A stretch of 64,000 nt of DNA from Halobium salinum. Its GTDB lineage: Archaea > Halobacteriota > Halobacteria > Halobacteriales > Haloferacaceae. This document shows positions 37,761 to 60,787 of this stretch, piece after piece. The position numbers and the translations under genes are program-made. How positions within the stretch are numbered: position 1 is the first letter of the stretch; each line of letters begins with the position of its first letter. The notes below the pieces were generated by a model, which was not told where the DNA came from, did not search any database, and saw nothing but the letters and a program-made list of their open reading frames with translations. Location: assembly GCF_026586625.1 (NCBI RefSeq), contig NZ_JAODIW010000009.1:1-64000 (forward strand), in the 5' to 3' direction.

Positions 37761-37770
37761 GCTTTGTTAC
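37761..37770 (-). promoter_or_regulatory. ATAACAAAGC-type promoter element at TATA position
   Basis: Reads GTAACAAAGC on the minus strand, centred 30 bases before the GT-C-like start codon, with no Shine-Dalgarno between: the geometry of a leaderless core promoter. Confidence 0.65.
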
Positions 37771-37817
37771 GCGTCGCCTGCCCGTCGGCGGACCGTACAG
37801 CGGCGGACTCCGTCACG

Positions 37818-38861
37818 CTACGCACCCCCTTCGTCGACCGAGACCCACAGGTGGACCGACCGGTACGCGTTGTCTACGGTGGGGTCCGCCGGTGCGTCAC
37901 CCTTGTAGAGGTGGAAGGTCAGCCGAAGCTGGTCCCCGGTCATGGTGGGTTCTACCGCGAACGCCTCCTGTAGCGTCCCGCCCGCGGGGACGCGCCGTTG
38001 GAACGTGCCCAGCTGCTCCTGCTCGGTCACCCTGGTCCGCTCGCCGTCGACGGTGACCCGCTCGAGTTCGGCGACGACGGTGTACTGCTGTTGGGTCCCC
38101 TCGTGGTTGTCGACGCCGACGTGAAGCGTCTCCTGCTGTCCGGCGGTCAGGTTCGTCGGATACCCCCCGGCGACGAGCTCGCCGCTCTCGTTCTCCGAGA
38201 GCAGATAGAGCTCGGTGTACGGTTCGTCCGCGGTCTGTGGCTGTCCGCTCATCGCGTATCCGACCGAGGCGGCCGCGACCAGGACCGTGAGTCCCAGGAC
38301 GACCCGCGTCGCGGACTGGAAGGTGGAGCCGCTCGCCGGCATCGCCCTTCGTGCGGCGGCGACCCACCCGCCGAAGCTCGGGTCGAACCGTTCGCCGGCC
38401 GCGACGTTTCGCCGTCGGCTCACCGCGAGCAGAGCCAACGGGAGGCTCACTCCTGTGACGACCCCCATCACGACGGTCTCGTCGAGTCTGACGCCGGCGT
38501 GGAGAAGCAAGAGGAGGACGACCGGGACGGCGACGACGCTACACCCGACCGATAGGAGTAACCGCTCCGAGTACCGCGTCCCGCCCGAGGTGTCGCTCGA
38601 GACACCGAGTCCGGCCGACGGGTGCTCCGCGCGTTCGAACCCCGTCGGGAGCCGCCTCGGGAAGAGAAACGAGACGATCGCGTACCCCGGAACGACCAGC
38701 AGTGCCGGGATTCCGACCGCGAGCCGGAGCGGAAGCGGCGCTGCCAACACCACGGCCGCGTCGGCTACTAGGACGAGTAGGACGCCGACGAGGAGGTCGA
38801 CTGACAGCGTCTTGTCGGTCTGTGCGCCCGCATTCGGTGAGTCGAGAGAGTTCTGTGACAT
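37818..38861 (-). CDS. DUF1616-type membrane protein (second copy)
   Basis: 347 residues from MSQNSLDSPN; GGAG lies eight bases upstream and an AATAACAAAGC element 75 bases upstream, which gives a short leader. A longer TTG-initiated form is possible but weaker. About five membrane segments, including PLRLAVGIPALLVVPGYAIV, the DUF1616 hallmark, then an Ig-like extracytoplasmic domain (about 230-345) with YTVVAELERV. It is the paralogue of the 7.2-8.1 kb gene and is followed by the GT-C-like gene on the same strand. This repeated pairing suggests one functional unit. Confidence 0.85.
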   Translation of the reverse strand: MSQNSLDSPNAGAQTDKTLSVDLLVGVLLVLVADAAVVLAAPLPLRLAVGIPALLVVPGYAIVSFLFPRRLPTGFERAEHPSAGLGVSSDTSGGTRYSERLLLSVGCSVVAVPVVLLLLLHAGVRLDETVVMGVVTGVSLPLALLAVSRRRNVAAGERFDPSFGGWVAAARRAMPASGSTFQSATRVVLGLTVLVAAASVGYAMSGQPQTADEPYTELYLLSENESGELVAGGYPTNLTAGQQETLHVGVDNHEGTQQQYTVVAELERVTVDGERTRVTEQEQLGTFQRRVPAGGTLQEAFAVEPTMTGDQLRLTFHLYKGDAPADPTVDNAYRSVHLWVSVDEGGA

Positions 38862-38929
38862 TCTTGCTCCGGCGTAGTGGGGAGTCGTCTCCTCCCCCAA
38901 TCTCTACCCCGAACTACGACCCAGAAGCC

Positions 38930-38940
38930 GCTTTGTTATT
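38930..38940 (-). promoter_or_regulatory. ATAACAAAGC-type promoter element
   Basis: AATAACAAAGC on the minus strand facing the DUF1616 gene, identical over 11 bases to the element before the first GT-C-like gene. Confidence 0.6.
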
Positions 38941-39154
38941 GCTCGGTTACCCCTCCATTAGGGCCGTAAGCGGCCTTCCGAGGGCGTGGCACCGACTCAC
39001 ACCCCCTCACCTGGGCGGGCCTTCGAGCCCGACCCGTCTTCGGACGGACGCGACGAGTCGAGCGACCGGGCCGTCGCGCTCATCCGCCCCCGGGCTCTCG
39101 ACACGTATCATTTTTGACGTGGACGTTCGCGTGTCGATGTGTCTCGTATCGGCT

Positions 39155-39217
39155 GGCGTGGTAGTCATTCCCATCAGAAATCACGGGAGGCGTGGTAGTC
39201 ACGCCCACCAGACATCA
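39155..39217. repeat. 29-bp direct repeat, two copies 34 bp apart
   Basis: GGCGTGGTAGTCAYNCCCAY followed by CAGAMATCA occurs at 39155 and 39189. Non-coding. A TATA-like TGTTTATACTGG follows directly. Confidence 0.75.
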
Positions 39218-39554
39218 AAGTGTTTATACTGGTCCATCCAGACAGTGCCGGTGTTCGCAGTCGCCCCGGTCCGGCGGCGGTCCGCTTCCGCCGCGGGGCC
39301 GGCCGGGTGTGGGGGCACCCGGCGGGCGATCCGAGGTCGGGTCGCCGTTGGGCGAAGAGTCCCTACTCTGTCAGAAACCGCTGAGCGTCGCCCATGATGG
39401 GGTCCACCGTGAACTGCCCCCGTCTCAACGACGCATTTCCCACCGGCGGACGGCTGAAAACCCGCCTCTCGTCTGTAAAATCCGGTTTACTTCCGAAGTC
39501 CCTCTTCAATCCTGTATTAACTATCGATTAACTCAGCATTATCCTGATCGGTAC

Positions 39555-39563
39555 ACTTATATG
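39555..39563 (+). promoter_or_regulatory. Leaderless promoter of the beta-helix protein
   Basis: CACTTATATG centred about 29 bases before the start codon. Confidence 0.55.
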
Positions 39564-39587
39564 TGGGTAGAAACAGGTGCCTCTTGC

Positions 39588-41804: not shown

Positions 41805-42048
41805 CGAGCGTCTCGACTCCTTTCGGCTCTCTTCACCCGTTTCGGCTTCTCTTCGGACCGTTCGGCTCAGTGGCACGTCCCCGTTCTCCGCCTCTCCTTT
41901 CTCACCGGAGAGCGACACGCCGGACGCTACTGCGTGGTTCGCGTTCGTCACCCGTGGCGGCGTCCGTGTTCGGACTCGGCTGTCACCCGGGGAGTTTAGC
42001 TACCTGCTATGCCGCCGGCCGGTCGCGCACTCGACTGTACCCCGCTTC

Positions 42049-42058
42049 ATAACAAAGG
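42049..42058 (+). promoter_or_regulatory. ATAACAAAGC-type promoter element
   Basis: ATAACAAAGG, centred 38 bases before the start of the Thr/Pro-rich surface protein. Confidence 0.6.
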
Positions 42059-42091: not shown

Positions 42092-43540
42092 ATGCACGAG
42101 AGGGGACCCAGATACGCCACAGTACTCGTCGCGTTACTCCTCGCCGTACCGGCTGCGATGCTGTTCGCCGCCCCGGCGGACCTGACCCGGGCGCAGGAGG
42201 CACCACCGAACGAGACGACGACGTCGACTCCGGACCCGACGGCGACGTCCACTGCAGAACCGACGGCGACGTCGACCCCGGAGCCGACGACGACGTCCAC
42301 CGAAGACCCGACAGCGACGTCGACTCCGGACCGGACAGCGACGTCCACTGCGGAGTCGGGGTCGGTGACGGCCACCGACCTCGATGACGAGGAAGGGGAC
42401 GAAGAGGACGAGGGCGGAGAAGACGGAGACGACCGAGAGGACGACGGGGACAGTGAGAACGGAGACGACGAAGCGGACGAGGAAGACGCCGGCGACGCTT
42501 CCGTCGCCTATTCACCACCGGGTGGGCAGACCCGACCGCTCCAGAGTTCCCCACCGACGTCGACATCGACGGCTTCGCCGACACCGACGTCGACTGCTTC
42601 GCCGACACCGACGTCGACTGCTTCGCCGACACCGTCGCCAACGCCGACCCCGACTCCGACATCGACGGCTTCGCCGACACCGTCGCCAACGCCGACCCCG
42701 ACTCCGACATCGACGGCTTCGCCGACGTCGACCGCTTCGCCGACCCCGACGTCGTCGCCGACACCCTCGCCGACGGCGACCCCGACTCCGTCGTCGACCA
42801 CTTCGTCGACGCCTTCGCCGACCCCGACGTCGACTGCTTCGCCGACACCGACAGCGTCACCGACAGCTTCGCCAACGTCGACAGCTTCGCCAACGTCGAC
42901 AGCTTCGCCAACGTCGACGACGACATCGACATCGACCGCCTCGCCGACTCCGACGGCGACGGACGACCGACAGCCCGACCGGTCCGGTGACGGAGGTGGC
43001 GGTGGTGGCGGTGGTGGTGCCGCTCCGGACGATGACGGCGGGTTCGGTATCACGGACGTCTCTGTCGCCGAGACCGAACTGACCGTCGGCGACGAACTCA
43101 GGGTCCGCGTGACGGCGGAGAACACCGACGTCGTCCGTCACAGCCGCCAGTTCGACCTGGCAGTCGGGGGCCGGACGCTCGCGTCCACCCGCGTCTCCGC
43201 CGACGCCGGCGAGGAGCGAACGTTCGTGCTCTCCGGGGTCGTCGAGACCACCGGCGAACAGACCCTCGCCGTCGGCGCACAGCGCCGGACCATCGTCGTC
43301 CGCTCGCCGTCGGCCACCTCGACGGCGGCGACCGCGACGGACGCGGCGTCGTCGGGAACGCCGTCCAGCGCGACCGCGACGACGGAGAACGGTACCGACG
43401 TCGCGGCGCAGGCCGAGGAGGAGTCCGCGGTGGAGACGGCACAAGGGTCGATTCAACAGTCCGTCCCGACGCTCGGGCTGGGGCTGTTGGTCCTCTTCGG
43501 ACTCGTCGCCGCCGCGACGTTCCTGTTCGACCGCCGCTGA
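42092..43540 (+). CDS. Thr/Pro/Ser-rich surface stalk protein with CARDB-like domain
   Basis: 482 residues. Signal peptide (about 1-34) is followed by Thr/Pro repeats, a strongly acidic block (about 94-135) and about 150 residues of TSTASPTPTS-type repeats, a likely O-glycosylated stalk. A Gly run then leads to an Ig-like domain (about 315-405, ITDVSVAETELTVGDELRV and ENTDVVRHSRQF) that corresponds to the last domain of the CARDB-repeat protein at 32.8 kb (SNTDVVPHTRAF). The C-terminus has a single membrane anchor (LGLGLLVLFGLVAAATFLF) and two Arg. Encoded just after an ATAACAAAGG element. Confidence 0.85.
   Translation: MHERGPRYATVLVALLLAVPAAMLFAAPADLTRAQEAPPNETTTSTPDPTATSTAEPTATSTPEPTTTSTEDPTATSTPDRTATSTAESGSVTATDLDDEEGDEEDEGGEDGDDREDDGDSENGDDEADEEDAGDASVAYSPPGGQTRPLQSSPPTSTSTASPTPTSTASPTPTSTASPTPSPTPTPTPTSTASPTPSPTPTPTPTSTASPTSTASPTPTSSPTPSPTATPTPSSTTSSTPSPTPTSTASPTPTASPTASPTSTASPTSTASPTSTTTSTSTASPTPTATDDRQPDRSGDGGGGGGGGGAAPDDDGGFGITDVSVAETELTVGDELRVRVTAENTDVVRHSRQFDLAVGGRTLASTRVSADAGEERTFVLSGVVETTGEQTLAVGAQRRTIVVRSPSATSTAATATDAASSGTPSSATATTENGTDVAAQAEEESAVETAQGSIQQSVPTLGLGLLVLFGLVAAATFLFDRR
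42560..42950. repeat. Short coding repeats in the stalk region
   Basis: CGACSTCGACTGCTTCGCCG-like units repeat every 12-30 bases over almost 400 bases and encode the Ser/Thr/Pro stalk. Array length is likely to vary between strains. Confidence 0.8.
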
Positions 43541-44150: not shown

Positions 44151-45776
44151 CTACTCGAGGTAGCCCAGGTCGGCCAGCCGTTCCTCGACGGCGGCGTCGT
44201 CGGTCGCTTGCGCGGCGCGGGGTTCGTACTCGTCGTACTGTTTCGTCCCGACGTCGACGACGGGGGCGAGCGGGCGGCCGTCCATCGTCTCCGGGTACGC
44301 GATGCCGAACGTCGAGAGCACCGTCGAGGCCACGTCGTACAGGTGTGCGCCGGCGAGCGACGCGGTGGTGTCGACGCCCGGCCCGGTGAGCGAGACGATG
44401 CCGTCGAGCTTGTGGTTCCACGGCTCCATCGGCGTCGCCGAGAACGGCTCGTCGTGGAGCTGTGCGGAGAGCATCACGTCGAACTCGCGGGGGACGGTGA
44501 CGATGTCGACCGCGTCCTCGGCGTACGGACCGTCGAAGTAGTCCTCGCGCGGGCCCACCTCGTCGAAGACCGGGGTGCCGTCAGGCGCGGTGAGCGCGCG
44601 CAGGTCCTCGATGAGCTCCTGGCGGAGGGGTTCGTACTCCGCCTCGCTCACGACGCCGTTCGGCTCGCGGCCGTCGAGGTTGATGCGGACGCCACACTCG
44701 ATGCGGTCGCGCATGTACGCCTTCGAGTTCTGGAAGTCGACGCGCTCGCTGGCGGCGCGGACGAGCCCCGAGGGAGCGTGGGCGGCGACGACATCCGCGA
44801 GACCGACCCGTTTCAGCGCGCGGTGGATGCGCTGGCTCGTCAGGCCGACGGCGGCCCCGAGGGCGAGCGCACGCTCGGCCGGCGAGGGGCCGCCGTCGGC
44901 GCCGTCGTCCTCGGTCTTTCCGGACTTCCCGTTCTTCAGGGAGTCGTCGGCGATGGTCGACCAGGTCGGCATCCCCTCGCCACCCTTCGCGGTCTCGACG
45001 TAGCCGCGCTCTCGGAGGTAGTCGTTCATCCGGAACTCGTACCCCTCGTACTCGCCCATCCCGTGGTCCGAGACGATCATCACCGTCTCGGGCTCGCACT
45101 CCTCGAGCACCTTTCCGACCTGCTCATCGACGGCCTCGTAGACGGCGGCGACGACCTCGTCCTGGCCCGGGCACTCGTGGAAGACGGTGTCGGTCTGTTG
45201 GAACTGCAGGAAGCCGAAGTCGGGGTCGCGGGTGTCGGCGAGATAGCGGAACGCCTCCCCGCGCATCCGAATCAGCTCGCGGTAGGCGTCGACGTACCCC
45301 TGTGGGGTCTCCTCGTGGTCGCGGGCGTACACCCGATAGTCGCCGATGGCCTCGCGCACCTCGTCGAGGAGGTCGGCGGGATGGCAGTCGGGGTCCTCCG
45401 GGGCGGTGTAGCCGGGGATAATCGCGCCGGCGACGGCGGGCGGCGGGCTCGTCACCGGGGCGTTGACGACGACGCTCGACTTCCCGTGCTCGTCGAGAAT
45501 CTCCCAGAGCGTCCGCTCGCGCACGTCGGTGGCGTTCACCACGTCCCAGTCGTAGCCGTCGAACTTCAGGAAGCTGAACACGCCGTGCTTGCCGGGGTTG
45601 ACACCGGTGTACAGCGAGGGCCAGGCGCTCGGGGTCCACGGCGGAATCTGTGACTCCAGCGGGCCGGACACCCCGTCGTCGAGCAGACGCTCGATGTTGG
45701 GGAGCCGGCCCTCCTCGATCAGCGGCTCGAGGACCGACTCGCACGCCGCGTCGAGACCGAGTAACAGCGTCTCCAT
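44151..45776 (-). CDS. Alkaline-phosphatase-superfamily phosphodiesterase/nucleotide pyrophosphatase-like enzyme
   Basis: 541 residues from METLLLGLDA. It is cytoplasmic by sequence (no signal peptide). The family fold is shown by LLLGLDAA (metal Asp), PPWTPSAWPSLYTG (catalytic Thr/Ser region), NPGKHGVFSF, DTVFHECPG and IVSDHGMG. C-terminal SEYEPLRQEL- and DGRPLAP-type motifs follow. A CATAACAAAGG element is centred 29 bases before the ATG. A paralogue lies at 49.6-51.3 kb with the same end (ERLADLGY). Such enzymes in archaeal glycan loci probably cleave or transfer a phosphodiester such as a sugar-phosphate or nucleotide-sugar; the substrate is unknown. Confidence 0.85.
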   Translation of the reverse strand: METLLLGLDAACESVLEPLIEEGRLPNIERLLDDGVSGPLESQIPPWTPSAWPSLYTGVNPGKHGVFSFLKFDGYDWDVVNATDVRERTLWEILDEHGKSSVVVNAPVTSPPPAVAGAIIPGYTAPEDPDCHPADLLDEVREAIGDYRVYARDHEETPQGYVDAYRELIRMRGEAFRYLADTRDPDFGFLQFQQTDTVFHECPGQDEVVAAVYEAVDEQVGKVLEECEPETVMIVSDHGMGEYEGYEFRMNDYLRERGYVETAKGGEGMPTWSTIADDSLKNGKSGKTEDDGADGGPSPAERALALGAAVGLTSQRIHRALKRVGLADVVAAHAPSGLVRAASERVDFQNSKAYMRDRIECGVRINLDGREPNGVVSEAEYEPLRQELIEDLRALTAPDGTPVFDEVGPREDYFDGPYAEDAVDIVTVPREFDVMLSAQLHDEPFSATPMEPWNHKLDGIVSLTGPGVDTTASLAGAHLYDVASTVLSTFGIAYPETMDGRPLAPVVDVGTKQYDEYEPRAAQATDDAAVEERLADLGYLE

Positions 45777-45799: not shown

Positions 45800-45810
45800 C
45801 CTTTGTTATG
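45800..45810 (-). promoter_or_regulatory. ATAACAAAGC-type promoter element at TATA position
   Basis: CATAACAAAGG on the minus strand centred 29 bases before the phosphodiesterase start, with no other TATA-like sequence near. Confidence 0.7.
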
Positions 45811-45922
45811 GACCGATATCCGGCGACGCGCCGCTCGTCGGGGCCGAGCGTCGGCGGGACCCGCCGCCCTGAACTTTCCGCCGAAGTCGGGTGTAGCACC
45901 GACATACGGGCCGAAACCGCCG

Positions 45923-45933
45923 AATAACAAAGC
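45923..45933 (+). promoter_or_regulatory. ATAACAAAGC-type promoter element
   Basis: AATAACAAAGC on the plus strand facing wecB. With the minus-strand element 115 bases to the left it forms a divergent promoter pair. The wecB leader would be about 60 bases. Confidence 0.65.
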
Positions 45934-46014: not shown

Positions 46015-47079
46015 ATGAAGGTCCTGTCGGTCGTCGGTGCCCGACCACAGTTCATCAAGGCGTTCCCCGTCTCGCGAGCGCTCGCGGACGCGGGCCACGA
46101 GGAGGTGCTCGTCCACACCGGGCAGCACTACGACGAGGAGATGTCCGACGTGTTCTTCGAGGAACTCGGCATCCCCGAACCGGCGTACAACCTCGGCGTC
46201 GGCTCGGACGGCCACGTTCAGCAGACCGCCCGGATGATGACGGGGCTCGCCGACCTCGTCGAGGAGGAAGAGCCCGATTGCCTGCTCGTCTACGGCGACA
46301 CCAACTCCACGCTCGCGGGCGCACTCGTCGCCGTCCAGACGAACCGCGGGCTCGTCCACGTCGAGGCCGGCCTGCGCTCGGGCAACCGCGACATGCCCGA
46401 GGAGACCAACCGGATTCTCACCGACCACGTCTCGGACGTGCTCTGTGCCCCGACCGCGGAGGCCGTCCGCAACCTCGAAGCGGAGGGGCTGGAGGAGCGA
46501 ACCGTCAACACGGGCGACGTGATGTACGACGCGGCGCTGTGGGCGCGCGACCAGGCACGCGAGCACTCCGACGTGCTCGACCGGCTCGAACTCGACGACG
46601 GCGGGTACGTGCTCGCGACCGTCCACCGGGCCGCGAACACCGACGACCCCGCCCGCCTCGAGGCCATCCTCGAAGGGCTCGCCTCCGTCGACGAGCCGGT
46701 CGTCCTCCCGGCCCACCCCCGGACGAAGTCCCGGCTGGAGGAGTACGACCTCTGGGACCTCGCCACGGAGTACCTCCGGGTCGTCGAACCCGTCGGTTAC
46801 CTCGACTTCGTCCGCCTGCTCGACGGCGCCGACCGCGTGGCCACCGACTCCGGCGGCGTCCAGAAGGAGGCGTTCTTCCTGCGGACGCCCTGCGTGACCC
46901 TCCGCGAGGAGACCGAGTGGGTCGAGACCGTCGAGGCCGGCGGCAACGTCCTCGTGGGTGCCGACACCGAGGCGATCGAGGCGGCCCTCGCACGCACCGA
47001 CTGGTCGTACGGCGGGGGGGAGCCCTACGGCGACGGCAACGCCGCGGCGGCAGTCGCGGACTCGCTGTCCCGGCTGTAG
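46015..47079 (+). CDS. wecB: UDP-N-acetylglucosamine 2-epimerase (non-hydrolysing)
   Basis: 354 residues. It converts UDP-GlcNAc to UDP-ManNAc. Conserved motifs are VVGARPQFIK (6-15), TGQHYD, YGDTNST, HVEAGLRSG, PEETNR, TVHRAANT and DSGGVQKEA. Length matches the family. It is the first gene of a plus-strand series (deacetylase, GT4) and divergent from the phosphodiesterase. It takes GlmS-derived UDP-GlcNAc towards ManNAc or ManNAcA-containing glycans; no ManNAc dehydrogenase is seen in the window. Confidence 0.95.
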   Translation: MKVLSVVGARPQFIKAFPVSRALADAGHEEVLVHTGQHYDEEMSDVFFEELGIPEPAYNLGVGSDGHVQQTARMMTGLADLVEEEEPDCLLVYGDTNSTLAGALVAVQTNRGLVHVEAGLRSGNRDMPEETNRILTDHVSDVLCAPTAEAVRNLEAEGLEERTVNTGDVMYDAALWARDQAREHSDVLDRLELDDGGYVLATVHRAANTDDPARLEAILEGLASVDEPVVLPAHPRTKSRLEEYDLWDLATEYLRVVEPVGYLDFVRLLDGADRVATDSGGVQKEAFFLRTPCVTLREETEWVETVEAGGNVLVGADTEAIEAALARTDWSYGGGEPYGDGNAAAAVADSLSRL

Positions 47080-47148
47080 CCGGTCCCTGTCCGGCACGAA
47101 TTGCGAAATTTCCCTTCCGGGCGACCGTTTCGGTGCGGTGATGGTGGG

Positions 47149-47160
47149 GCATAACAATGG
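47149..47160 (+). promoter_or_regulatory. ATAACAATGC-type promoter element
   Basis: GCATAACAATGG between wecB and the deacetylase gene, about 118 bases before the chosen start codon. Confidence 0.45.
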
Positions 47161-47272: not shown

Positions 47273-48175
47273 ATGTTCGACGACTACGACTTCGCGCTCT
47301 GTCTCACCCACGACGTCGACCGCGTCCGGAAGACGTTTCAGGGGCCGTACTACGCCCTGAAGCAGCCGGAACGGCGGGGGTACCACCTCCGTACGTCGCT
47401 CCCGGACCGGAACCCATATTGGCAGTTCGAGCGCATCATGGAACTCGAGGACGACCTCGGTGTCCGGTCGTCATTTTACTTCCTCCAGGAGCGGGAGCTG
47501 CTCCGTGAGATGGCCCCGAAAGAGTGGCTCACCCCCCGGAACTGGATGCTCCACCGGGGCATCTACGACGTCCGCGAACCGGCGATCGCCGAGGTCATCC
47601 GCGACCTCGACGCCGGCGGCTGGGAGGTCGGCCTCCACGGCTCGTACGGTTCGTACGACGACCGCGAGCGACTCGCCCACGAGAAGGCCGTCCTCGAGGA
47701 CGTGCTCGGTCACCCCGTTCGCGGAATCCGTCAGCACCACCTTAACCTCACGGAGCCGCCGACGAGGACCTGGGAACATCACGCCGCGCTCGGCTTCGAG
47801 TACGACGCCAGCCTCGGCTCCAGCCGGACGTACGGGTTCGGAAACGGGTACGGACCCCTCCACCCGTTCGACGACGAGTTCACCGTCTTCCCGCTCACGC
47901 TCATGGAGGTCGCGATGCCGACCCCCGGCGACGAGCCCGAAGCCGCTTGGGCGGCCTGCGAGTCGTTGCTGCACGAGGCCCGCGACAACGGTGCCGTGAT
48001 GACGGTGCTCTGGCACCCCCGGTACTTCAGCGAGCGCGACTTCCCCGGCTACGCCGACATGTACCGCCGGCTCATCGAACGGGCCCAGGAACTGAACGCG
48101 TGGGTCGGCCCCCTCGAGGAGGCGTACGACGCTCTCGCCGCACAGCCGGACGCCCTCGCACTCGCCGACGACTGA
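47273..48175 (+). CDS. Polysaccharide deacetylase family protein
   Basis: 300 residues from MFDDYDFALC. The NodB-like fold is shown by LCLTHDVDRV (first metal Asp), EVGLHGSYGS (His motif) and a C-terminal VLWHPRYFSE. This THDVD / GLHGSY pattern belongs to a deacetylase subfamily common in bacterial and archaeal exopolysaccharide and O-antigen loci. No signal peptide, so it acts in the cytoplasm or at the membrane on a nucleotide- or lipid-linked sugar. The upstream frame extension lacks conserved character. It is followed 160 bases later by a GT4 gene. Confidence 0.85.
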   Translation: MFDDYDFALCLTHDVDRVRKTFQGPYYALKQPERRGYHLRTSLPDRNPYWQFERIMELEDDLGVRSSFYFLQERELLREMAPKEWLTPRNWMLHRGIYDVREPAIAEVIRDLDAGGWEVGLHGSYGSYDDRERLAHEKAVLEDVLGHPVRGIRQHHLNLTEPPTRTWEHHAALGFEYDASLGSSRTYGFGNGYGPLHPFDDEFTVFPLTLMEVAMPTPGDEPEAAWAACESLLHEARDNGAVMTVLWHPRYFSERDFPGYADMYRRLIERAQELNAWVGPLEEAYDALAAQPDALALADD

Positions 48176-48337
48176 TTCGAACTCGCCGCAGTCACCCCGG
48201 GTGTGTCGCCACCGACACCCCGGATGTGTCGACGCTGCCACCCCGAGCGCGCCGTCGGTCGGGCTCTCCATTCTCCCTCGAGGTTCCCCGAGAACCGCCG
48301 ATTAGGCCTCGTAACGGGCGGTAGGCGCGGAATTACA

Positions 48338-49348
48338 ATGGGAACGCCTGCGGAATCGACGGTCGATTGGATGCGCGTACTGAACCTCACGTCGAACCGG
48401 ATGGCCCGGTTCTACGTCCAGCAAGTGGACGTCCTCGAACGACTCGGTGTCGACCAGACGACGCTGAGTCCGCCGGGCAGCGAGCACATACAGATGGACA
48501 GCGACGAGGCGCGGTCGCCGCTCGACTACGCGCGTTTCGTCCCGGAGGTGCTCGCCCATCTCGACGACGACTACGACCTGATCCACGCGAACTACGGACT
48601 CAGCGTGCCGCCGGCGCTGCTGCAGTCGAAGCTTCCGGTCGTCCTCTCGCTGTGGGGGTCGGACCTCATGGGCGAGTACGGCTGGCTCTGTAAGCGGCTC
48701 GCGAAGCGCTGTGACGCCGTCATCGTCATGTCGCAGGATATGGCGGACCAGCTTCCCTGTGACTCCTACGTCATCCCCCACGGCGTCAACTTCGACCGCT
48801 TCCGCCCGATTCCGCGCGAGGAGGCCCTCGAGACCGCCGGCTGGGACCCGGACGCCAAGAACGTCCTCTTCCCGTACCCGCCGAACCGCGAGGTGAAAGA
48901 CTTCCCCAAGGCCGAGCGTGTCGTCGAGGCGGTCGACGACCTCCTCGACGAACCGGTCGAGATTCGGACGCTGTCGGGTGTCGCCCACGAGGACATGCCG
49001 TACTACTACAACGCGGCAGACGCGATGCTGATGACCTCGGTTCACGAGGGGTCGCCCAACTCGGTGAAGGAGGCGCTCGCCTGCAACACGCCCGTCGTCT
49101 CGGTCGACGTGGGCGACGTCCGCGAACGTCTCAGCGGCGTCGGCAACGCGGCGGTCTGTGACGCCGAAGCGGAGCTCGTCAGCCAGCTCGCGACGGTCCT
49201 CCGGAGCGGCGAGCGTTCGAACGGTCGAGAGGTGGTCCGCGAGCTGAGCCTCGAACACATGGGCCAGCGCATCCTCGATGTGTACGAGCAGGTTCTTGAC
49301 CTCCCACGAAAAGACGCAGACCTCAACCGTCGAGTTAGCATCGTCTGA
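48338..49348 (+). CDS. Glycosyltransferase family 4 protein
   Basis: 336 residues from MGTPAESTVD (a Met at MRVLNLTSN, 11 codons later, is an alternative). GT-B fold: N-terminal domain with YDLIHANYGLS and LWGSDLMGEY, then YVIPHGVNFDRF at the linker, and the donor domain with SVHEGSPNSVKEALACNTPVV, the EX7E motif. Length is that of a compact GT4. It transfers a sugar from a nucleotide donor on the cytoplasmic side of the membrane; donor and acceptor unknown. It closes the short series wecB-deacetylase-GT4. Confidence 0.9.
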   Translation: MGTPAESTVDWMRVLNLTSNRMARFYVQQVDVLERLGVDQTTLSPPGSEHIQMDSDEARSPLDYARFVPEVLAHLDDDYDLIHANYGLSVPPALLQSKLPVVLSLWGSDLMGEYGWLCKRLAKRCDAVIVMSQDMADQLPCDSYVIPHGVNFDRFRPIPREEALETAGWDPDAKNVLFPYPPNREVKDFPKAERVVEAVDDLLDEPVEIRTLSGVAHEDMPYYYNAADAMLMTSVHEGSPNSVKEALACNTPVVSVDVGDVRERLSGVGNAAVCDAEAELVSQLATVLRSGERSNGREVVRELSLEHMGQRILDVYEQVLDLPRKDADLNRRVSIV

Positions 49349-49567
49349 AGACGGATTCTTTCCCGGTATTCCCGTTACTGCTTTCGGTTCCGACCTCTCT
49401 TGACTCTCTTCATGATGTCACCAGTACGTTTCGAGCTCCGGTTGCTCACCGAAGCCGAGACTCAAAACTAGCCTTGCCAACCCTTTACCGACCGACGACC
49501 CACCGACATACCAGCTCGTAGCGGCCTCACGACACGAATTATTGGGAAGCGTACCGGAAGCGTCCGA

Positions 49568-49577
49568 TTAACAAAGC
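49568..49577 (+). promoter_or_regulatory. ATAACAAAGC-type promoter element
   Basis: TTAACAAAGC, centred about 40 bases before the start of the second phosphodiesterase. Confidence 0.55.
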
Positions 49578-51324: not shown

Positions 51325-51649
51325 CGCTACCGACACTCCGAGGTAGCGCCCATCCACGCCGTTGCTTCGCCGAAAACACGCTTCTTCCTTCTTCTTGGAC
51401 ACAATGAGGTTCCCGTGGCCCCAGTTGTTCTGATATCAACAAATAGTCCAGTTGCTTAGCAGTGTCTCTGAGAACAGATGGAAAGTCAATACTATTCGGT
51501 TTCATCTGGCTCGTGCCAGTAACTACAACTATGTTATTTTTGATTCATTCAGTGTTTCCGATGATGTTTCGCTGGGACTACTCCCGATGGTCGACAGCGT
51601 AACGGGTGGAAAACAAAGGTCCACTCGGGGGTAGTCTCGACAAGACGAA
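51325..51649. other. AT-richer intergenic region, no gene
   Basis: About 325 bases with low GC and stretches such as CTATGTTATTTTTGATTC. It could hold the promoter of the FemAB-like gene about 30-120 bases upstream; no other feature is recognised. Confidence 0.45.
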
Positions 51650-52654
51650 ATGAGGGTCGAAACAGTCGACATGTCCGAGTACGGTGACCTCCTCCCCAAC
51701 TCGGGGGTCGAACCGTTCCACAAGCCCGCGTTCCTGCGCGCGGCCGCGAGACACACGGCGGCGGAGCTCGAGCTCTGTGCCGGATACAAAGGTGACCAGG
51801 CGGTCGCGCTGCTCCCACTGTTCGTGCAGGAGCGCTCCTTCGGCCGGACGGTGTTCTCGCCGCCGCCGTCACTGCTGATTCCGCACATGGGCCCGATCAT
51901 GATGCCAACCAGTCCGAAGCCGCGCAAACAGGAGCGCGTCAACAGCAAGTTCACCGAGGCCGTGGTCGAGACGTACGCCGGCGACGACGCCGGCCCGCTC
52001 GACCTCTTCCGGATGATCGCCGGGCCCGCGTACGACGACCCGCGTCCCTTCCGCTGGGCCGGCTTCGACGTGGAGAGCTCCTTCACGTACCGGCTGGACC
52101 TCGACGTCCCGAACCTGGACACGCTCCAGAAGGACTTCTCCAGCAGCCTGCGCCGGGAGATTCGCTCCGCGGAGGACCTCGGCGTCACCGTCGACGTCGA
52201 GGGCATCGAGGGGACGCGCGACATCTTCGAGGACGTGACCGCCCGCTACGCCGAGCAGGACGAGCCGTTCGGCCCCACCTGGCCGTACGTCCGCGACGTG
52301 GCGAAGTCGATGGGCGAGGACGCCCGCTCGTTCGTCGTTCGTGACCCCGACGGGAACTATCTCAGCGGTATCCACGTCCTGTACGGGGACGAGACGATGT
52401 ACTTCTGGCTCGGAGGCTCCCGCGGGGACTACGAGGGAACCAGCGTCAACAGTTACCTCCACTGGAAGATCATCGAGGACGCCTACGAGAACCGCGAGGG
52501 GGTCACGAAGTACGACCTCGTCGGCGCCAACACCGAGCGCCTCTGTGAGTACAAGTCAAAGTTCGCGGCGGACCTCACGCCGTACTACACGATCGAGTCG
52601 GGCGGCGTCCCGATGGCGCTCGCGAAGCGCGCCTACCAGCTGGTCGTGAAGTAG
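51650..52654 (+). CDS. FemAB-like / GNAT (Acetyltransf_6) protein
   Basis: 334 residues. It matches the FemAB-related acyltransferase family, with a double GNAT fold: first half with PFHKPAFLRAAA and LLPLFVQ, the strongly conserved RPFRWAGFDVESSFTYRLDL, and second half with YFWLGGSRGDYEGTSVNSYLHW and DLVGANTERLCEYKSKF. Bacterial members add amino acids from aminoacyl-tRNA to peptidoglycan or sit in exopolysaccharide loci; archaea lack murein, so a glycan or lipid-linked sugar is the probable acceptor. The partial gene at the right window edge is its paralogue. GC content rises here compared with its left neighbour. Confidence 0.85.
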   Translation: MRVETVDMSEYGDLLPNSGVEPFHKPAFLRAAARHTAAELELCAGYKGDQAVALLPLFVQERSFGRTVFSPPPSLLIPHMGPIMMPTSPKPRKQERVNSKFTEAVVETYAGDDAGPLDLFRMIAGPAYDDPRPFRWAGFDVESSFTYRLDLDVPNLDTLQKDFSSSLRREIRSAEDLGVTVDVEGIEGTRDIFEDVTARYAEQDEPFGPTWPYVRDVAKSMGEDARSFVVRDPDGNYLSGIHVLYGDETMYFWLGGSRGDYEGTSVNSYLHWKIIEDAYENREGVTKYDLVGANTERLCEYKSKFAADLTPYYTIESGGVPMALAKRAYQLVVK

Positions 52655-53774: not shown

Positions 53775-54199
53775 CGTTCGGATCACGCCGTACCGAATGC
53801 CCGATCTAATCGCCGGTGGTGAACGCCGTGTTCATCGTAGTTCCTTAGTGGCGTTTTCAAGAGCAGTCTTGCGCCGAGAATCGATACAGTCATACGATAC
53901 GACCTATCAATAGTATAAATATATTAATTACGAATGGATTGGATTGTGGTAAAAGTACTGGGGCGAACATACCACTACCACGTCCGCTTCTGGAGTCAAT
54001 AGACATATTGGTGTATCCAGCTAACCTGTGGCGTCTCCCGGTAATCGGCGCCAAACAAAGCCGTCACGAGGCGCATTCCGGAACGAATGGAGGATTCACG
54101 GACACAGTTCGTAGTGACATGTCGTGACACGTGTCGACAAGCCGTCGATGCTGTCCGGTCCGAGCTTCCGCTCCGACCGATGACGAGCGAGGGCCGTGT
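53775..54199. other. AT-rich intergenic region before the flippase
   Basis: Over 400 bases with the most AT-rich patch of the window (CAATAGTATAAATATATTAA, 53907-53926). CCAAACAAAGCC at 54051 weakly resembles the island's promoter element. No gene is supported. Confidence 0.5.
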
Positions 54200-55666
54200 A
54201 TGAACCTCAAGGAGCGTATCTCGGAAGGCGTAAAGGCGTCGTTTGTTGCACAGGTCGTGTACGCGCTGGGAACCGGCGCGCTGATGATTATCCTCGCACG
54301 CTATCTCCTTACACCCGACGAGTACGGCCTACTCTACTTTGCGCTCTCGATCCTCGGGGTCGCACAGTTGGTCGCAACATTGGGCCTGCCGAAGGCCGGA
54401 GCGAAGTACCTCAACGAGTACCTGGAGACGGATCCGGGACAGATTCCGCATATCCTGCGGCGGACGCTAACTTATACCTTAGCAGTGACCAGTGTCGTCT
54501 GTCTCGCCTTAGTGACTCTCTCCGGACCGGTCGCGACACGTCTCGGCCACGGGGAGATCGTTCCGTTTCTCGTCGCCGGGGCGGCGTACGTCCTTTTTGC
54601 CGGTCTAGACATGTCCGTTAGACTCGCATTTCAAGGAATCAATAAACTCACATGGGCGGCGGTAGTGAAGAGCGTGTCTGCCGTCGCTCGGCTCGTCTTC
54701 GCCGTCGCTTTTGTGCTCATGGGGTTCGACGCACTCGGAGCTCTGTTCGGGTACATTGTCGGGTTCGCTCTCGGCGTAGCTGTCGGCCTATGGATCCTCT
54801 ACTCCCGGTTCTACCGGACGTACGATACAGCTACCCCTGACCCTAGCCTCTCGAAGAAGATCGTCAGCTACAGCTTACCGCTATCCGTAATGAATGGGGC
54901 CGAGCTACTTGACAAGCAAGTCGACTCCATCCTTATAGGTTTTCTCATGAACCCCACCGCAGTCGGGTTCTACGTACTAGGCAAGCAGATCGTTGACTTC
55001 GCGTCGATACCCGCTGTTTCCCTTGGTGCGACCGTCGCACCAGCACTCGGGACGGAGAAGGCAGGCAACCGAATGCAGCAGGCCGCACGGCTGTACGAGC
55101 AGTCATTTGTTCATATGCTATTGCTGTACGTCCCTGCGGGTGTTGGACTGTTTCTGGTCGCTGAGCCGACAGTTCGGTATGTATTCGGCTCTGAGTACCT
55201 CGGAGCGGTCCCCGTGCTTCAGATATTTAGTGTGTGGCTCGTCATCCTCGGCGTAGCGAAGGTGACGACGAATCCGCTTGATTACCTCGGATTGGCTGGA
55301 GCACGGGCCCGTATCCGCGGTGCAATGGCTGTGTCGAATTTCGTCCTGAATCTGATTCTTATCCCGCGAATCGGGGTTGCGGGTGCAGCGCTGGCGACAG
55401 TCGTCACGACGGGAATCTACGTCGCTACCTGTGTCTACTTCATGCACCGGGAGCTCTCGCTCAACCTCGATTATCTCGTGAAACGGGGAGTACTCGTCTG
55501 CGCTGTCGGCGTCGCGATGGGTATCGGCGTATCGATCGCTGTCCCTTATGTCTCGGGACTACTCACCCTTGCCGCCGTCATCGGCGTCGGCGTTGTTATC
55601 TGGGCGACGACCGCGACCGCCAGCGGCGCACTCGACGTCAAGCGCGTGATGGCGCTACTCTCCTGA
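54200..55666 (+). CDS. Wzx-type polysaccharide flippase
   Basis: 488 residues from MNLKERISEG, with 12-14 membrane segments throughout. It belongs to the polysaccharide-transport (MATE-like, MOP) superfamily: N-terminal VKASFVAQVVYALGTGALMIILARYLLTPDEYGL and central LDKQVDSILIGFLMNPTAVGFY. Such proteins flip lipid-linked oligosaccharides across the membrane; AglR in Haloferax is related. It is the only exporter in the island and so the probable route for the glycan built by the nearby transferases. Codon use is less GC-rich than in neighbours. A GTG 23 codons upstream gives a poor extension. Confidence 0.9.
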   Translation: MNLKERISEGVKASFVAQVVYALGTGALMIILARYLLTPDEYGLLYFALSILGVAQLVATLGLPKAGAKYLNEYLETDPGQIPHILRRTLTYTLAVTSVVCLALVTLSGPVATRLGHGEIVPFLVAGAAYVLFAGLDMSVRLAFQGINKLTWAAVVKSVSAVARLVFAVAFVLMGFDALGALFGYIVGFALGVAVGLWILYSRFYRTYDTATPDPSLSKKIVSYSLPLSVMNGAELLDKQVDSILIGFLMNPTAVGFYVLGKQIVDFASIPAVSLGATVAPALGTEKAGNRMQQAARLYEQSFVHMLLLYVPAGVGLFLVAEPTVRYVFGSEYLGAVPVLQIFSVWLVILGVAKVTTNPLDYLGLAGARARIRGAMAVSNFVLNLILIPRIGVAGAALATVVTTGIYVATCVYFMHRELSLNLDYLVKRGVLVCAVGVAMGIGVSIAVPYVSGLLTLAAVIGVGVVIWATTATASGALDVKRVMALLS

Positions 55667-57510: not shown

Positions 57511-57673
57511 CTGGAATCCGATACGTCCTCCCGTTACCTTAGTAAACGCGCCCTACCGACCGGAACCGGTGGTCGTCCCGTGTCGCCTACCACCACGGAC
57601 GTGGGCGCATCTCACACGGCGATAGCCGGCGAACGGGCGAGTGTGCGAAGGGGGGCCAACCGGTACGTGCTCG

Positions 57674-57683
57674 CTAACAAAGC
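57674..57683 (+). promoter_or_regulatory. ATAACAAAGC-type promoter element at TATA position
   Basis: CTAACAAAGC centred 29 bases before the ATG of the membrane hydrolase-like gene. Confidence 0.65.
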
Positions 57684-57707
57684 GTCGGCGGACCCAACCC
57701 CACGCCA

Positions 57708-58277
57708 ATGTGGCCATGGGAACACGTCGCCGTCGGGTACATCGCGTACTCGTTGCTCTCGAGAACCGTCGTCGCGCGTCGTCCCGGCGTCCCCGAACTG
57801 TTCGCGGTGCTTCTCGGGTCGCTCGGACCGGATCTCATCGACAAACCGCTCGCCTGGGGACTGGGGGTGCTCCCCGGGGGTTACTCCCTGGGCCACTCGG
57901 TGTTCTTCGCCGTCCCGCTCGCGCTCGCCGCGGTCGGTGTCGCGGCGCTCGCGGGTCGGGGGTCGACCGGGGTCGCCTTCGGGCTCTCGTATCTCCTCCA
58001 CCTGCCGGCCGACGTGTACTACTTCGTCGTCTTCGGCGACCCGCCCGCCTACGGTATCCTGTTCTGGCCGCTCGTCCCCGCCGCTGGCGGCTCGATACGC
58101 GGCGACCTCCTGAGTGAGGCACTGCGGTACTTCACTACCTTCCTCGCGGACGTCACGACGCCCGAGGCGGTGCCGTTCCTCGTCGGCGAAGCGCTCCTGC
58201 TCGCGACGGCCGCGTTCCTCCTCTGGCGAGACACCGCGGCCCGCCGCCGCGGCCGGCCCGAGGCGACGACCCGCTGA
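57708..58277 (+). CDS. Membrane protein, DUF457/YdjM-like metal-dependent hydrolase fold
   Basis: 189 residues, MWPWEHVAVGY. About five membrane segments with conserved polar motifs GSLGPDLIDKPL (about 43-54), SLGHSVFF and SYLLHLPADVYY, where Asp and His could bind a metal. These match the membrane-bound YdjM/DUF457 family. A CTAACAAAGC element lies at the TATA position. Related in type to the 140-residue protein at 10.8-11.3 kb. The reaction is unknown; given its neighbours it may modify a lipid or lipid-linked sugar. Confidence 0.8.
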   Translation: MWPWEHVAVGYIAYSLLSRTVVARRPGVPELFAVLLGSLGPDLIDKPLAWGLGVLPGGYSLGHSVFFAVPLALAAVGVAALAGRGSTGVAFGLSYLLHLPADVYYFVVFGDPPAYGILFWPLVPAAGGSIRGDLLSEALRYFTTFLADVTTPEAVPFLVGEALLLATAAFLLWRDTAARRRGRPEATTR

Positions 58278-58499
58278 CCGCCGGTCGACCCTTCCGTCTC
58301 TTCTTCCGACTCGTTTCGGTCCAGCGGTCGCCTCTAGCGCCTCGGCGTTACGACGGGAACGGGACGAAGTGCCGGAAAGCTGGTCCGCGGTGGCACTCGA
58401 GCTCGACGGCGTCGGGCGTGTCGGAGCGAGAAGAGAACAGCGAGCGGCAGGTGTGTCGGGCGCCGTCCGTGGTGAAGGTGACCGTGTCGACGGTGGAGA

Positions 58500-59633
58500 C
58501 TACGGCTCTTCGCGACCGCCGTCGTGGCGGATGTCCATCGGCTCGCCGCCGTCGGCCTCGGCGACCGCGGGCTCCGAGTCGGGGTCGGCGTCGAAGGAGC
58601 GCACGGACGCGGCGTCGGCGGCGGCCGCAGCGTCGGCCGGGGTCGTCAGGTCGGCCGGCTCGCGCTCGACCGTGGTGCGCTCTGCGTCGCCGGTTCCGAC
58701 GTCGAAGAGGAGGCCGGCGAGCAGCGAGACGAGGCTCGCGACGACCAGCTTGGGGACGCCCGCGTCGAACTCGCGGTTCGCGACCGACCGGACCGCCCCG
58801 ACGACGGCGGCGACACCGCCGAGGACACCCAGCGCGTAGCCCAGCGCGGACGGGTGCGGCAGGAGGGAGGCCGACTTGCGTCGCTGTCGGTAGACGAAGT
58901 TGCGAAGCAGCAGCTTCGAGAGGTTCGGGACGAACGACCCGTACCGGATGCCGCTCTGTTCGTTGCCGTACTCGGCGGGCATCCGCACGTCGGCGACGAC
59001 CCGGCCGTCGACGTTGAGCTTGGCGAGCACGTCGTTGAGGACGCCGTAGCGTTCGTACAGGTCCTCGACCGGCAGGGCCTCCAGCGTCTCGCGGTTGATC
59101 GCGGTGTAGCCGTTCTGGGAGTCGGTGACGCTCCAGTAGCCGGTCGAGAGCCGGGTCAGGTTCGTCAGCAGCGAGTTCCCGAACCAGCGCCAGGTCGACA
59201 TCCGACCTCGGTCGCTCTTGTCGGTCAGGCGGTTCCCCTTGGCGTAGTCGGCGCCGCCGGTCGTCACCGCCTCGATGAGCAGGGGCATCCGCTCGGGGTT
59301 CATCTGGCCGTCGCCGTCGACACAGACGACCACGTCCAACCCGTCCTCCAGCGCACGGCGGTACCCCGTCTTCAGACCGCCGCCGACCCCTCGGTTCCGC
59401 TCGTGGCGGATGGGCTCCACCACGGGGTCGAAGGCGGCCGTCCCGTCCGCTCTGCGTCGTTCGTTCTCCCGGTTCGCGTGGTCGACGATCTCGTCCCACG
59501 TGCCGTCCTCCGAGCGGTCGTCGATGACGTAGGCTCGGTCGACGTACGCCGGCAGGGTGTCGATGACCCCGCCGACGAACCCTTCCTCGTTGTACGCCTT
59601 CACCACGACGCCGATTGTTTTTCCGTCGTACAT
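58500..59633 (-). CDS. Family 2 glycosyltransferase with C-terminal membrane segments
   Basis: 377 residues. GT-A fold: VVVKAYNEEGFVGGVI at the start, then VIDDRSEDGTW, GGGLKTGYRRAL and the metal site VDGDGQ (Asp106, Asp108), with a QNGY motif further on. Two membrane segments lie at about 275-295 and 308-330. The acidic tail is rich in Ala/Asp. This organisation is that of dolichyl-phosphate sugar synthases (AglJ, AglD type). It probably loads a sugar on dolichol phosphate. Upstream is a CGCATAACAATGC element. Confidence 0.88.
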   Translation of the reverse strand: MYDGKTIGVVVKAYNEEGFVGGVIDTLPAYVDRAYVIDDRSEDGTWDEIVDHANRENERRRADGTAAFDPVVEPIRHERNRGVGGGLKTGYRRALEDGLDVVVCVDGDGQMNPERMPLLIEAVTTGGADYAKGNRLTDKSDRGRMSTWRWFGNSLLTNLTRLSTGYWSVTDSQNGYTAINRETLEALPVEDLYERYGVLNDVLAKLNVDGRVVADVRMPAEYGNEQSGIRYGSFVPNLSKLLLRNFVYRQRRKSASLLPHPSALGYALGVLGGVAAVVGAVRSVANREFDAGVPKLVVASLVSLLAGLLFDVGTGDAERTTVEREPADLTTPADAAAAADAASVRSFDADPDSEPAVAEADGGEPMDIRHDGGREEP

Positions 59634-59673
59634 AGCACCAGTCAGTCTTCGAATCGACGGTCGGCGCTTCGGG

Positions 59674-59685
59674 GCATTGTTATGC
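59674..59685 (-). promoter_or_regulatory. ATAACAATGC-type promoter element
   Basis: GCATAACAATGC on the minus strand, about 47 bases before the GT2 start, predicting a leader of roughly 20 bases. Confidence 0.6.
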
Positions 59686-59950
59686 GTCGGCTGTCGGCCG
59701 CCTGTCCGCCCGTACGCCCTCCTTACCGGCGGTCACGTCTCCCCTCGACGCGTCCCCCGCTCGCCTCATTCCCTCTCCGTTCCCCCGGGTCAGCTCTCCG
59801 GCCGTCCGCCCGTCGCGGCCCGTCCCGTTCGGCTTCGTTTCGCCCGTTCGGCTGTGTTCTGCCCCGTTCGGTGCTGACCGCTCCCGTCCGAGTTCGCGTC
59901 ACCCGTCGGTGGTCGCGCTCCCGGATGAGCAGAGGAACCGAGGAGTCAGA

Positions 59951-60004
59951 CAGTCGAGTGAATCGAGAGAACCGGGAGAATCGCGAGAACCACGGGGAAC
60001 CAAC
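59951..60004. repeat. 9-bp degenerate tandem repeat, six units
   Basis: Consecutive 9-mers close to GAAYCGNGA (GAATCGAGA, GAACCGGGA, GAATCGCGA, GAACCACGG). On the minus strand this reads TTCTCNCGA-TTC, resembling part of the 18-bp unit upstream of parA (GGTTCTCACGA). Confidence 0.55.
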
Positions 60005-60102
60005 GGGTCGGGAGAAGCAGGCGGACGGGAGAACCCCGGAGAGTCGACCGAGTCGGATCGGCCGCATCCGGCCGTAGCGGCCCGGTTCGACTCCCTCGAC
60101 GA

Positions 60103-60684
60103 CTAGTCGAGGAGGTTCGGGCCCCGAAGCTCCTCGGGGAGCTCGCGAATCTGTGCGGGGACGCCGACGGCCAGCGACCCCGGCGGCACGTCCTCGATGA
60201 CGACGGCGCCGGCGGCGACGAACGACCCCTCGCCGACCGTGACGCCGGGGAGGATGGTCGCGTTCGCGCCGATACTCACGTCGTCCTCGAGGGTGGGCCC
60301 CACGAGGTCGACCTCCTGTCGGATGGGGTAGGGGTCGTTCGTCAGGACGGCTCGAGGCCCGACGAACACGCGGTCGCCGATTTTCGTGTAGCTCGGGACG
60401 TACACCCCGGTCTGGAGGCTGACGTTGTCGCCGATCTCCGTCCAGCCGTCGATGACGGTGTTGGTGCCGACGACCACGTCGTCGCCGATGACGGTGTGCT
60501 CGCGGATGAGCACGTTGTGGCCGGTTGTCAGCCCGCGACCGATGGTCACGTCCGTGTAGACGATAGAGCCGGCGCGGATGGTCGAATCCTCGCCGACGAC
60601 CGTCGGCTCCTCGTCGTCGTCGCCGTGCGGGTGGTCGAGCGTGACGCCTTCGGTCTCGCGGGCCCGCTCCTCGGCCTCGCTCAT
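60103..60684 (-). CDS. Hexapeptide-repeat acyltransferase
   Basis: 193 residues from MSEAEERARE; GGAGG lies six bases upstream, which fixes the start. A left-handed beta-helix of hexapeptide repeats runs from about 28 to 170 (for example VYTDVTIGRGLTTGHNVLIRE, IGDDVVVGTN, IGANATILPGVTVGEG). It is of the WbpD/WlaI type, which N-acetylates an amino group on a nucleotide-linked sugar; PIRQEVDLVGP and AVLTND resemble that subgroup. It probably finishes an amino sugar of the surface glycan. The acceptor is not certain. Confidence 0.88.
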   Translation of the reverse strand: MSEAEERARETEGVTLDHPHGDDDEEPTVVGEDSTIRAGSIVYTDVTIGRGLTTGHNVLIREHTVIGDDVVVGTNTVIDGWTEIGDNVSLQTGVYVPSYTKIGDRVFVGPRAVLTNDPYPIRQEVDLVGPTLEDDVSIGANATILPGVTVGEGSFVAAGAVVIEDVPPGSLAVGVPAQIRELPEELRGPNLLD

Positions 60685-60775
60685 CTGCGGCCTCCCACTC
60701 GCGGCGTCTCGCCACCGTCTGTGCGGCTCGTCGGGTCGGTCTCCCACGACATACCCGCCACTTCCCAGCACACCG

Positions 60776-60787
60776 GGTTTGTTATTC
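60776..60787 (-). promoter_or_regulatory. ATAACAAAGC-type promoter element (variant)
   Basis: GAATAACAAACC on the minus strand, about 97 bases before the acyltransferase start codon. Confidence 0.45.

Follow-up and report, generated by a model that had tools for sequence, protein, structure and literature searches.

The bop gene of Halobacterium is activated by Bat. Its promoter has the TATA-box GTTACA and no recognisable transcription factor B (TFB) recognition element, or BRE (PMC2121645). The core promoter described for Haloferax has a TTWT TATA-box, a CGAAA BRE, and a WW element at -10, and 72% of the protein-coding transcripts are leaderless (PMC4983044). Regulators of archaeal surface structures include ArnR and ArnR1 of Sulfolobus; ArnR possesses a HAMP and a sensor domain, and the inverted repeats that it binds, at -43 to -84, precede a BRE and TATA-box that are intact (PMC6396743). 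The archaellum promoter has a winged-helix factor, EarA, that makes up for a poor core, and a better BRE bypasses EarA (PMC13286277, PMC5512572). The present work concerns an element with the fixed core ATAACAAAG that recurs in the first 64,000 nucleotides (the window; G+C 66.8%) of a 207-kb contig of Halobium salinum, NZ_JAODIW010000009.1 (C14 below), in a genome of 4.46 Mb. It is proposed, at a probability of roughly 0.5, that this element is the core promoter of a glycan regulon and that it is read by a DUF7344 protein encoded in the same island (28799-29374). The combination of a membrane-bound helix-turn-helix reader, a deviant core, and the TATA position was not found in the literature searched; its parts are known in archaea. 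A search whose coverage left preprints and most subscription papers outside returned no report of the element (for TAACAAAG, among the entries listed) and no paper on DUF7344.

The pattern ATAACAAWGC occurs exactly four times in the window (4186-, 38930-, 45924+, and 59674-), compared with 0.01 expected. When one mismatch is allowed, the count is 15 against 0.40 expected, and none of 100 shuffles reached these counts. All 14 positions listed in the original prediction hold the element to within 2 bases. Nine of them differ from ATAACAAWGC at one base, and the weak copy at 54051 differs at two, aligned as CAAACAAAGC at 54052. Two of the 15 copies were absent from that list, 29938+ and 55590-. 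The first looks real. The second lies within a coding gene and was treated as a probable chance match. Genome-wide, the exact pattern occurs six times, and five of these are at C14:4186-68261. Copies with at most one mismatch number 55; C14 holds 20, including 17 at 4-74 kb. At the same cut-off, the pattern reversed as a control gives 68, so the count outside the island is chance-like. The form TAACAAAG was found ten times on the 204 kb of C14 that was read, each time at 4-74 kb, and not at all in 220 kb of control stretches.

A matrix was trained on 64 sites of other genomes, with all C14 sites excluded. At a single cut-off it gives 26 matches within the first 76 kb of C14, compared with 9 over the following 128 kb and 8 over the 220 kb of control. 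It recovers all 14 of the earlier sites, the weak copy at 54051 included. In the window it adds 29939+ (before glmS), 48333+ (before a glycosyltransferase gene), and 51611+ (before a GNAT/FemAB-type gene). Beyond the window it adds C14:64400-, 68260-, 68355+, 69947-, and 73491-. The original prediction would have failed if the element were equally common before other genes, and it is not. An element lies within 180 bases of 16 of the 50 transcription-unit starts in the island and of 0 of the 82 on the rest of C14, as placed by our own caller, and TAACAA about 45 to 20 bases before the ATG was seen in only 1 of 146 control promoters.

The genes that follow the copies in the window include glmS and those for a UDP-GlcNAc 2-epimerase, two type I phosphodiesterases, glycosyltransferases, a hexapeptide transferase, a GNAT/FemAB-type protein, a flippase, a DUF1616 protein, a YdjM protein, and a CARDB secreted protein, and several further genes have no family. 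In Halorussus marinus (G045), 17 site-adjoining proteins were scanned, and PKD surface proteins, an archaeal pilin, a glycosyltransferase, a DUF1616 protein, phosphodiesterases, and a GNAT protein were found. The same scan also gave a TatD DNase, a formyl transferase, and an ATP-grasp-like protein (below cut-off). The regulon is mostly, not wholly, a cell-surface one. Exact copies are also clustered elsewhere, with nine in 22 kb of G007:C18, six in 35 kb of G023:C3, and three in 5 kb of G021:C18. The pattern HAN8ATAACAAAG is present in 90 of 116 Halobacteria genomes, with 440 sites against 119 for the reversed pattern, and Halorussus marinus has 35 sites against 0. Glycan clusters in further haloarchaeal families also bear the element, which is read here as marking a surface-glycan regulon of many Halobacteria. 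A chance recurrence of an AT-rich word would account for the scattered single matches elsewhere in the genome, which are at control level. It is refuted by the shuffle, reversed-pattern, and matrix counts given above, and its probability is practically nil.

The element is bipartite and consists of [A/C/T]A, eight poorly conserved bases, and then ATAACAAAG. Positions are counted here from the first T of this core. Among the 76 cluster sites retrieved with TAACAAWG as the core, the base at -10 is A in 87%, that at -11 is G in 1%, and that at -1 is A in 80%. In loci found by protein alone, A is at -10 in 44 of 52. A larger set of 217 non-redundant sites comes partly from loci fetched with a pattern that requires A at -10, and the unselected values for this base are the 87% of 76 and the 44 of 52. 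A at -10 is absent at some copies of the window genome (42050, 45808, and 47152).

Among the 217 sites, an ATG stands at +12 to +30 in 34 and at +32 to +50 in 128, with a peak of 63 at +32 to +34. An A/T enrichment is present at +21, some 11 bases ahead of where transcription is expected to start. In the 146 ordinary ATG genes of the same genome, a BRE-like A is found at -34/-33, TATA-like T/A at -30 to -25, and A/T at -11/-10 from the ATG. This layout agrees with the TATA, BRE, and WW description of Haloferax (PMC4983044). The element profile has no second A/T-rich block near the TATA position; a TTWT-like feature was not found and ATAACAAAG stands there instead. No position between -9 and -2, where the BRE motif CGAAA would lie, is conserved. 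Since the ATG peak at +32 to +34 matches the TATA spacing of the ordinary genes, the element can be read from sequence as a core promoter that stands at the TATA position and the edge of the BRE, in place of both. The transcription start sites of these genes are placed from the ATG peak and are putative. At the three genes for which the original prediction gave TATA-like spacing, the T of TAACAAAG lies 33, 32, and 33 bases before the ATG (37736-, 45776-, and 57708+). Its proposal of a core-promoter element at the TATA position, marking surface-glycan genes on both strands with no normal TATA there, is supported. The element thus resembles the ordinary haloarchaeal core promoter in the start-codon distance of its TATA, in an A/T step about 11 bases before the start, and in mostly suiting leaderless genes (PMC4983044). 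It differs in that TATA and BRE give way to a fixed ATAACAAAG, preceded by an A at ten bases and by the phased A/T array. As in the bop promoter, there is a deviant TATA without BRE, for which a helper factor is expected (PMC2121645). However, bop is a single promoter with another sequence, and here one fixed element serves a regulon across several families.

The phased array lies upstream of the core. A/T peaks are found at -10, -21, -31, -41, -53, and about -63, with a spacing of about 10.5 bp over about six turns. No column shuffle out of 5000 was phased as highly over -58 to -12, and the phasing is lost over -152 to -106 (279 of 2000 shuffles as high). A/T per site is 2.28 at phased and 1.29 at anti-phase positions, which were picked after the profile had been seen. 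The shuffle tests were made on the pooled sites; in the profiles, the phasing is visible in six subsets, one of them 14 sites of the window genome, and it is strongest in Halorussus and weakest in the pattern-fetched loci. Its register is fixed relative to the core. A protein besides TATA-binding protein (TBP) and TFB may touch one face of the DNA across about six turns.

A particular TBP and TFB pair had been offered as the reader. Two TBP-repeat matches (one gene where both were seen in one frame) are present in 39 of the 116 genomes. Since 13 of these single-TBP-gene genomes carry 5-12 sites, a special TBP is unnecessary, and this half of the proposal was rejected. The TFB half stands only in part. 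A TFB gene is present in 55 of 80 DUF7344 loci, mostly about 1 kb away. A close TFB form is found in 27 of 27 genomes of the Natrialbaceae (family f7), and none elsewhere exceeds 67% identity among the matches listed. The island-linked TFBs cluster (98/94), and this cluster is joined (83/90) by the G052 island TFB and the G022/G070 TFB. Members of this distinct lineage were seen in Natrialbaceae, some Haloferacaceae, and family f6. The element is also upstream of the G022 TFB gene (L207:2953-4036, which is G022:C2:262953-264036), with the called start 121 bases away, as if it controlled a general factor in that genome. These observations would suit a dedicated TFB that reads the element with an ordinary TBP, with DUF7344 only tuning it. 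However, in a 44-row tree no placed TFB of Halorussus (35-37 sites), G074, G124, G007, or G015 falls within the clade; this tree holds a subset of the TFBs, long branches meet in it, and one long window-genome branch is unplaced. No TFB was found in the parts of G074:C3 (80 kb) and G100:C2 (34 kb) that bear the element. In ten genomes searched fully, a TFB with more than 64% identity to the Halegenticoccus one was found only in G009. The phased A/T extends about 95 bases before the expected start, and a TBP/TFB footprint is shorter than this. The TFB partner looks lineage-specific, because TFBs of the clade occur in some lineages and none was placed for other motif-rich ones. As the general reader, a special TFB is weakened by these results; it is kept as an alternative and is considered unlikely.

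The candidate reader preferred here, the 28799 protein, has 191 residues and belongs to DUF7344 (PF24035; 104.9 bits against a Pfam cut-off of 27.8). Besides this, only weak helix-turn-helix matches were found, with no HAMP or sensor domain. It is one of four DUF7344 genes in the C14 island (28799+, 68435+, 70935+, and 72443+). Its structural model has a mean predicted local distance difference test score (pLDDT) of 80.9 and shows a winged helix, with values above 90 for most of residues 31-120, followed by two long helices at the C-terminus. A Foldseek search with this model gave weak matches, mostly to winged-helix proteins including TubR and ArsR/MarR types. The best match to a solved structure was at E 0.019, with none under E 0.001, and a sequence search against solved structures gave none up to E 0.1. 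By description, the protein is like ArnR and ArnR1 in its N-terminal helix-turn-helix (modelled here), and it may be like them in having C-terminal transmembrane helices and in controlling surface structures (PMC6396743). It differs from ArnR in lacking the HAMP and sensor domains, and its proposed element lies on the TATA position and is no palindrome. EarA would be alike as a winged-helix factor that offsets a poor core, and differs in binding upstream of the core and in its family and regulon (PMC13286277, PMC5512572).

DUF7344 genes and the element tend to occur together. Across the 116 genomes, the DUF7344 count and the site count per genome are correlated (Spearman 0.72, against 0.15 for the control pattern). 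Of the 113 sites in six genomes, 14 are within 1 kb of a DUF7344 gene, compared with at most 1.4 expected. Of the 20 DUF7344 genes with the best scores in these genomes, 9 have a site that close, whereas 2 of the remaining 116 do, with the five weakest of 141 rows left out. The nearest site is less than 10 kb away for 29 of 36 hand-picked best matches among the matches listed (32 genomes). The 80 loci found by protein similarity hold 77 bipartite sites against 3 in the reversed sequence, with at least one site in 53. A site precedes the DUF7344 match itself by 134-165 bases in Halorussus and Haladaptatus, and in the Haloferax loci it precedes a second DUF7344-like gene (identified by eye) just upstream. 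Self-control of DUF7344 is likely, because the element precedes a DUF7344 gene in several lineages. Within one genus, G009, G043, G096, and G114 possess the subfamily recognised by the profile A1 and 6-9 sites, and G072 has 39 DUF7344 matches, a best A1 score of 1.8e-53, and one site.

With A1, all 39 genomes that score better than 1e-65 have at least three sites, compared with 13 of 57 that score at or above 1e-60. This contrast favours a DUF7344 reader, but the proteins from which A1 was made had been chosen for lying in stretches with the element, the 1e-65 cut was chosen once the data had been seen, 26 of the 39 genomes are of one family, and the 20 genomes in between, 12 of which have at least three sites, were left out. 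Several observations weigh against such a reader. Genomes with A1 scores of 1e-60 or above, among them G119, G083, G067, and G109, can still have 4-7 sites. Among the 80 loci found by protein similarity, 27 lack a site. The 28799 protein has homologues in 8, not all, of the 13 stretch groups fetched from other genomes, and no element copy lies just upstream of the 28799 gene in the window. Around the other DUF7344 genes of this genome, eleven stretches totalling 222 kb gave 3 generic matches, no more than the 3 in the 220 kb of control and against 14 in 100 kb of the two islands. On this count, a separate element for each DUF7344 gene was rejected. A hydrophobic segment is present in 32 of 32 aligned members, but two are present in only 17 of 32 at the cut used, with some rows incomplete. 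The control for the phasing is small and not clean, because one of its two regions is also high: 54 control TATA promoters show no phasing at -58 to -12, but the value at -105 to -59 is high (2 of 2000 shuffles). The clearest counter-example is G021 (L035 and L036; G021:C18:50001-90000), which has three copies in 5 kb, no DUF7344 match in 40 kb, and a best A1 score of 3.4e-30. In G088, of the same genus, three sites are clustered and the best match is on another contig.

These last two genomes, with the element and no linked DUF7344, would be expected if another factor read the element and DUF7344 were simply a frequent neighbour of glycan genes. An unlinked transcription factor could do this, as could a histone-like protein responsible for the A/T phasing, and regions bound by HpyA in Halobacterium do show a 10.4-bp periodicity (PMC10128011). 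However, only the subset of DUF7344 genes noted above is linked to the element, the phasing is in fixed register to the core, and a second island couples a different DUF7344 to a different variant. This explanation is therefore regarded as very unlikely.

The second island lies outside the window at C14:179830-200198. It possesses paralogues of the phosphodiesterase, GT2, YdjM, and glmS genes and a DUF7344 gene at 196132, and TAACAAAG is absent from it. A pattern derived from its own sites, TTAN9TAATAAA, occurs five times at C14:181-200 kb and once in the window (6079-), with none in reversed C14 and none in the 220 kb of control. A looser form occurs nine times on C14, and eight of these have ATG or GTG at +33 to +44. 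The second-island element has the same architecture, with one core base and the bases at -12/-11 changed, and a different DUF7344. This is a pairing of the sort that a match between reader and element would predict, in a single case. The second-island variant, the DUF7344 candidate, the A at -10, and the phased A/T array all go beyond the original prediction.

If the element is read by this DUF7344 subfamily (DUF7344-A), the winged helix would bind the fixed core and the C-terminal helices would tie the protein to the membrane. DUF7344-A would form multimers on one face of the upstream DNA and would aid the assembly of TBP and TFB where TATA and BRE are poor. Some lineages may add a dedicated TFB. 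The parts of this mechanism that we infer are direct binding, multimerisation, the tethering to the membrane within the cell, activation, and a signal. DUF7344-A could instead be a repressor, with the element a weak TATA for the ordinary TBP that is covered until surface glycan is needed. Archaeal repressors commonly act at the TATA position, which the element overlaps, and repressors of the ArsR and MarR types are among the winged-helix proteins matched in the fold search. However, a repressor leaves unexplained the fixed core and the loss of consensus TATA and BRE at most copies, and the upstream array suggests more than occlusion. The repressor explanation is improbable, and DUF7344-A more likely helps initiation than represses it, because the consensus TATA and BRE are gone. 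A wider proposal is that Halobacteria have a second, sigma-like promoter definition. In this, ATAACAAAG would replace TATA and BRE, and a membrane-tethered winged-helix protein would polymerise along the phased A/T and bring TBP and TFB to glycan genes at the membrane. Islands would pair DUF7344 readers with variants (TAACAAAG and TAATAAAG), so that promoter and reader would travel as orthogonal units. This proposal is speculative and rather doubtful.

The copies in the window can be placed as follows. The copy TACCCGGTCAATAACAAAG at 4187..4205 (-) is a hybrid with the TTA form of the second island, and a PMT_2-like membrane gene (2079-4019) follows at 175 bases. A variant of the second-island type, TTA N9 TAATAAAG, is at 6078..6096 (-) with ATG at +42. 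The copy TAACAATA at 24595..24613 (-) is before the gene of a secreted protein (22789-24453). The gene of the proposed reader, a DUF7344 winged-helix protein with hydrophobic C-terminal helices, is at 28799..29374 (+), and a degenerate copy, TTACAATG, is at 29928..29946 (+) before glmS (30077-31894). Three copies on the minus strand then precede the gene of a CARDB-domain secreted protein (copy at 35687..35705; gene 32757-35651, ATG at +43), a gene with no Pfam family (37762..37780; 35805-37736, ATG at +33), and a DUF1616 gene (38931..38949; 37818-38861). Two copies have no A at -10, one at 42039..42057 (+) before an open reading frame at 42092-43540 (ATG at +42) and the other at 45801..45819 (-) before a type I phosphodiesterase gene at 44151-45776 (ATG at +32). 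The copy at 45914..45932 (+) is before the UDP-GlcNAc 2-epimerase gene (46015-47079). The copy TAACAATG at 47141..47159 (+), also with no A at -10, is before 47273-48175, which has weak deacetylase-like matches below the cut-off.

Another degenerate copy, again TTACAATG, is found at 48322..48340 (+) before a glycosyltransferase gene (48371-49348, ATG at +38). The copy at 49558..49576 (+) lies before a type I phosphodiesterase open reading frame ending at 51324 (ATG at +43). Degenerate copies of the form AAACAAAG are at 51600..51618 (+), before a GNAT/FemAB-type gene (51650-52654, ATG at +39), and at 54042..54060 (+), upstream of a flippase open reading frame ending at 55666; the latter is the weak copy mentioned above. 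A YdjM-type gene (57708-58277, ATG at +33) is downstream of the copy at 57664..57682 (+). Finally, TAACAATG at 59675..59693 (-) lies before a GT2 glycosyltransferase gene (58500-59633, ATG at +49), and TAACAAAC at 60777..60795 (-) is before a hexapeptide transferase gene (60103-60684).

Other regulators are encoded near the DUF7344 gene. PadR-like paralogues at 27731-28012 (+) and C14:69630-69905 (-) are near two island ends, and the latter has an element 42 bases before its ATG. Both were considered as readers and rejected, with homologues in fetched stretches of only four other genomes. A gene for Rod-determining factor A (RdfA, PF21811, 237 bits) at 26815-27456 (-) adjoins the PadR-like and DUF7344 regulators, and homologues are present in stretches of G009 and G017. 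From this neighbourhood, it is possible that cell shape is linked to surface glycan. A tRNA-Ser (CGA) is predicted at 5485-5564 (+) opposite a called gene at 5138-5950 (-), and one of the two calls may be wrong. The gene at 12143-12940 (-) has a ParA-like start with a GGVGKTT motif seen by eye. Because of this ParA-like gene, the 207-kb contig may be a plasmid or an integrated element.

Little is known of how archaea coordinate large surface-glycan clusters, and it has long been asked why haloarchaea retain TFBs and small winged-helix proteins in such numbers. The element described here offers a defined sequence, a predicted regulon, a named candidate reader, and an internal comparison of two islands with two variants, which makes both the element and the reader directly testable. 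If the proposal is true, it would provide a ready promoter and regulator pair for haloarchaeal genetics.

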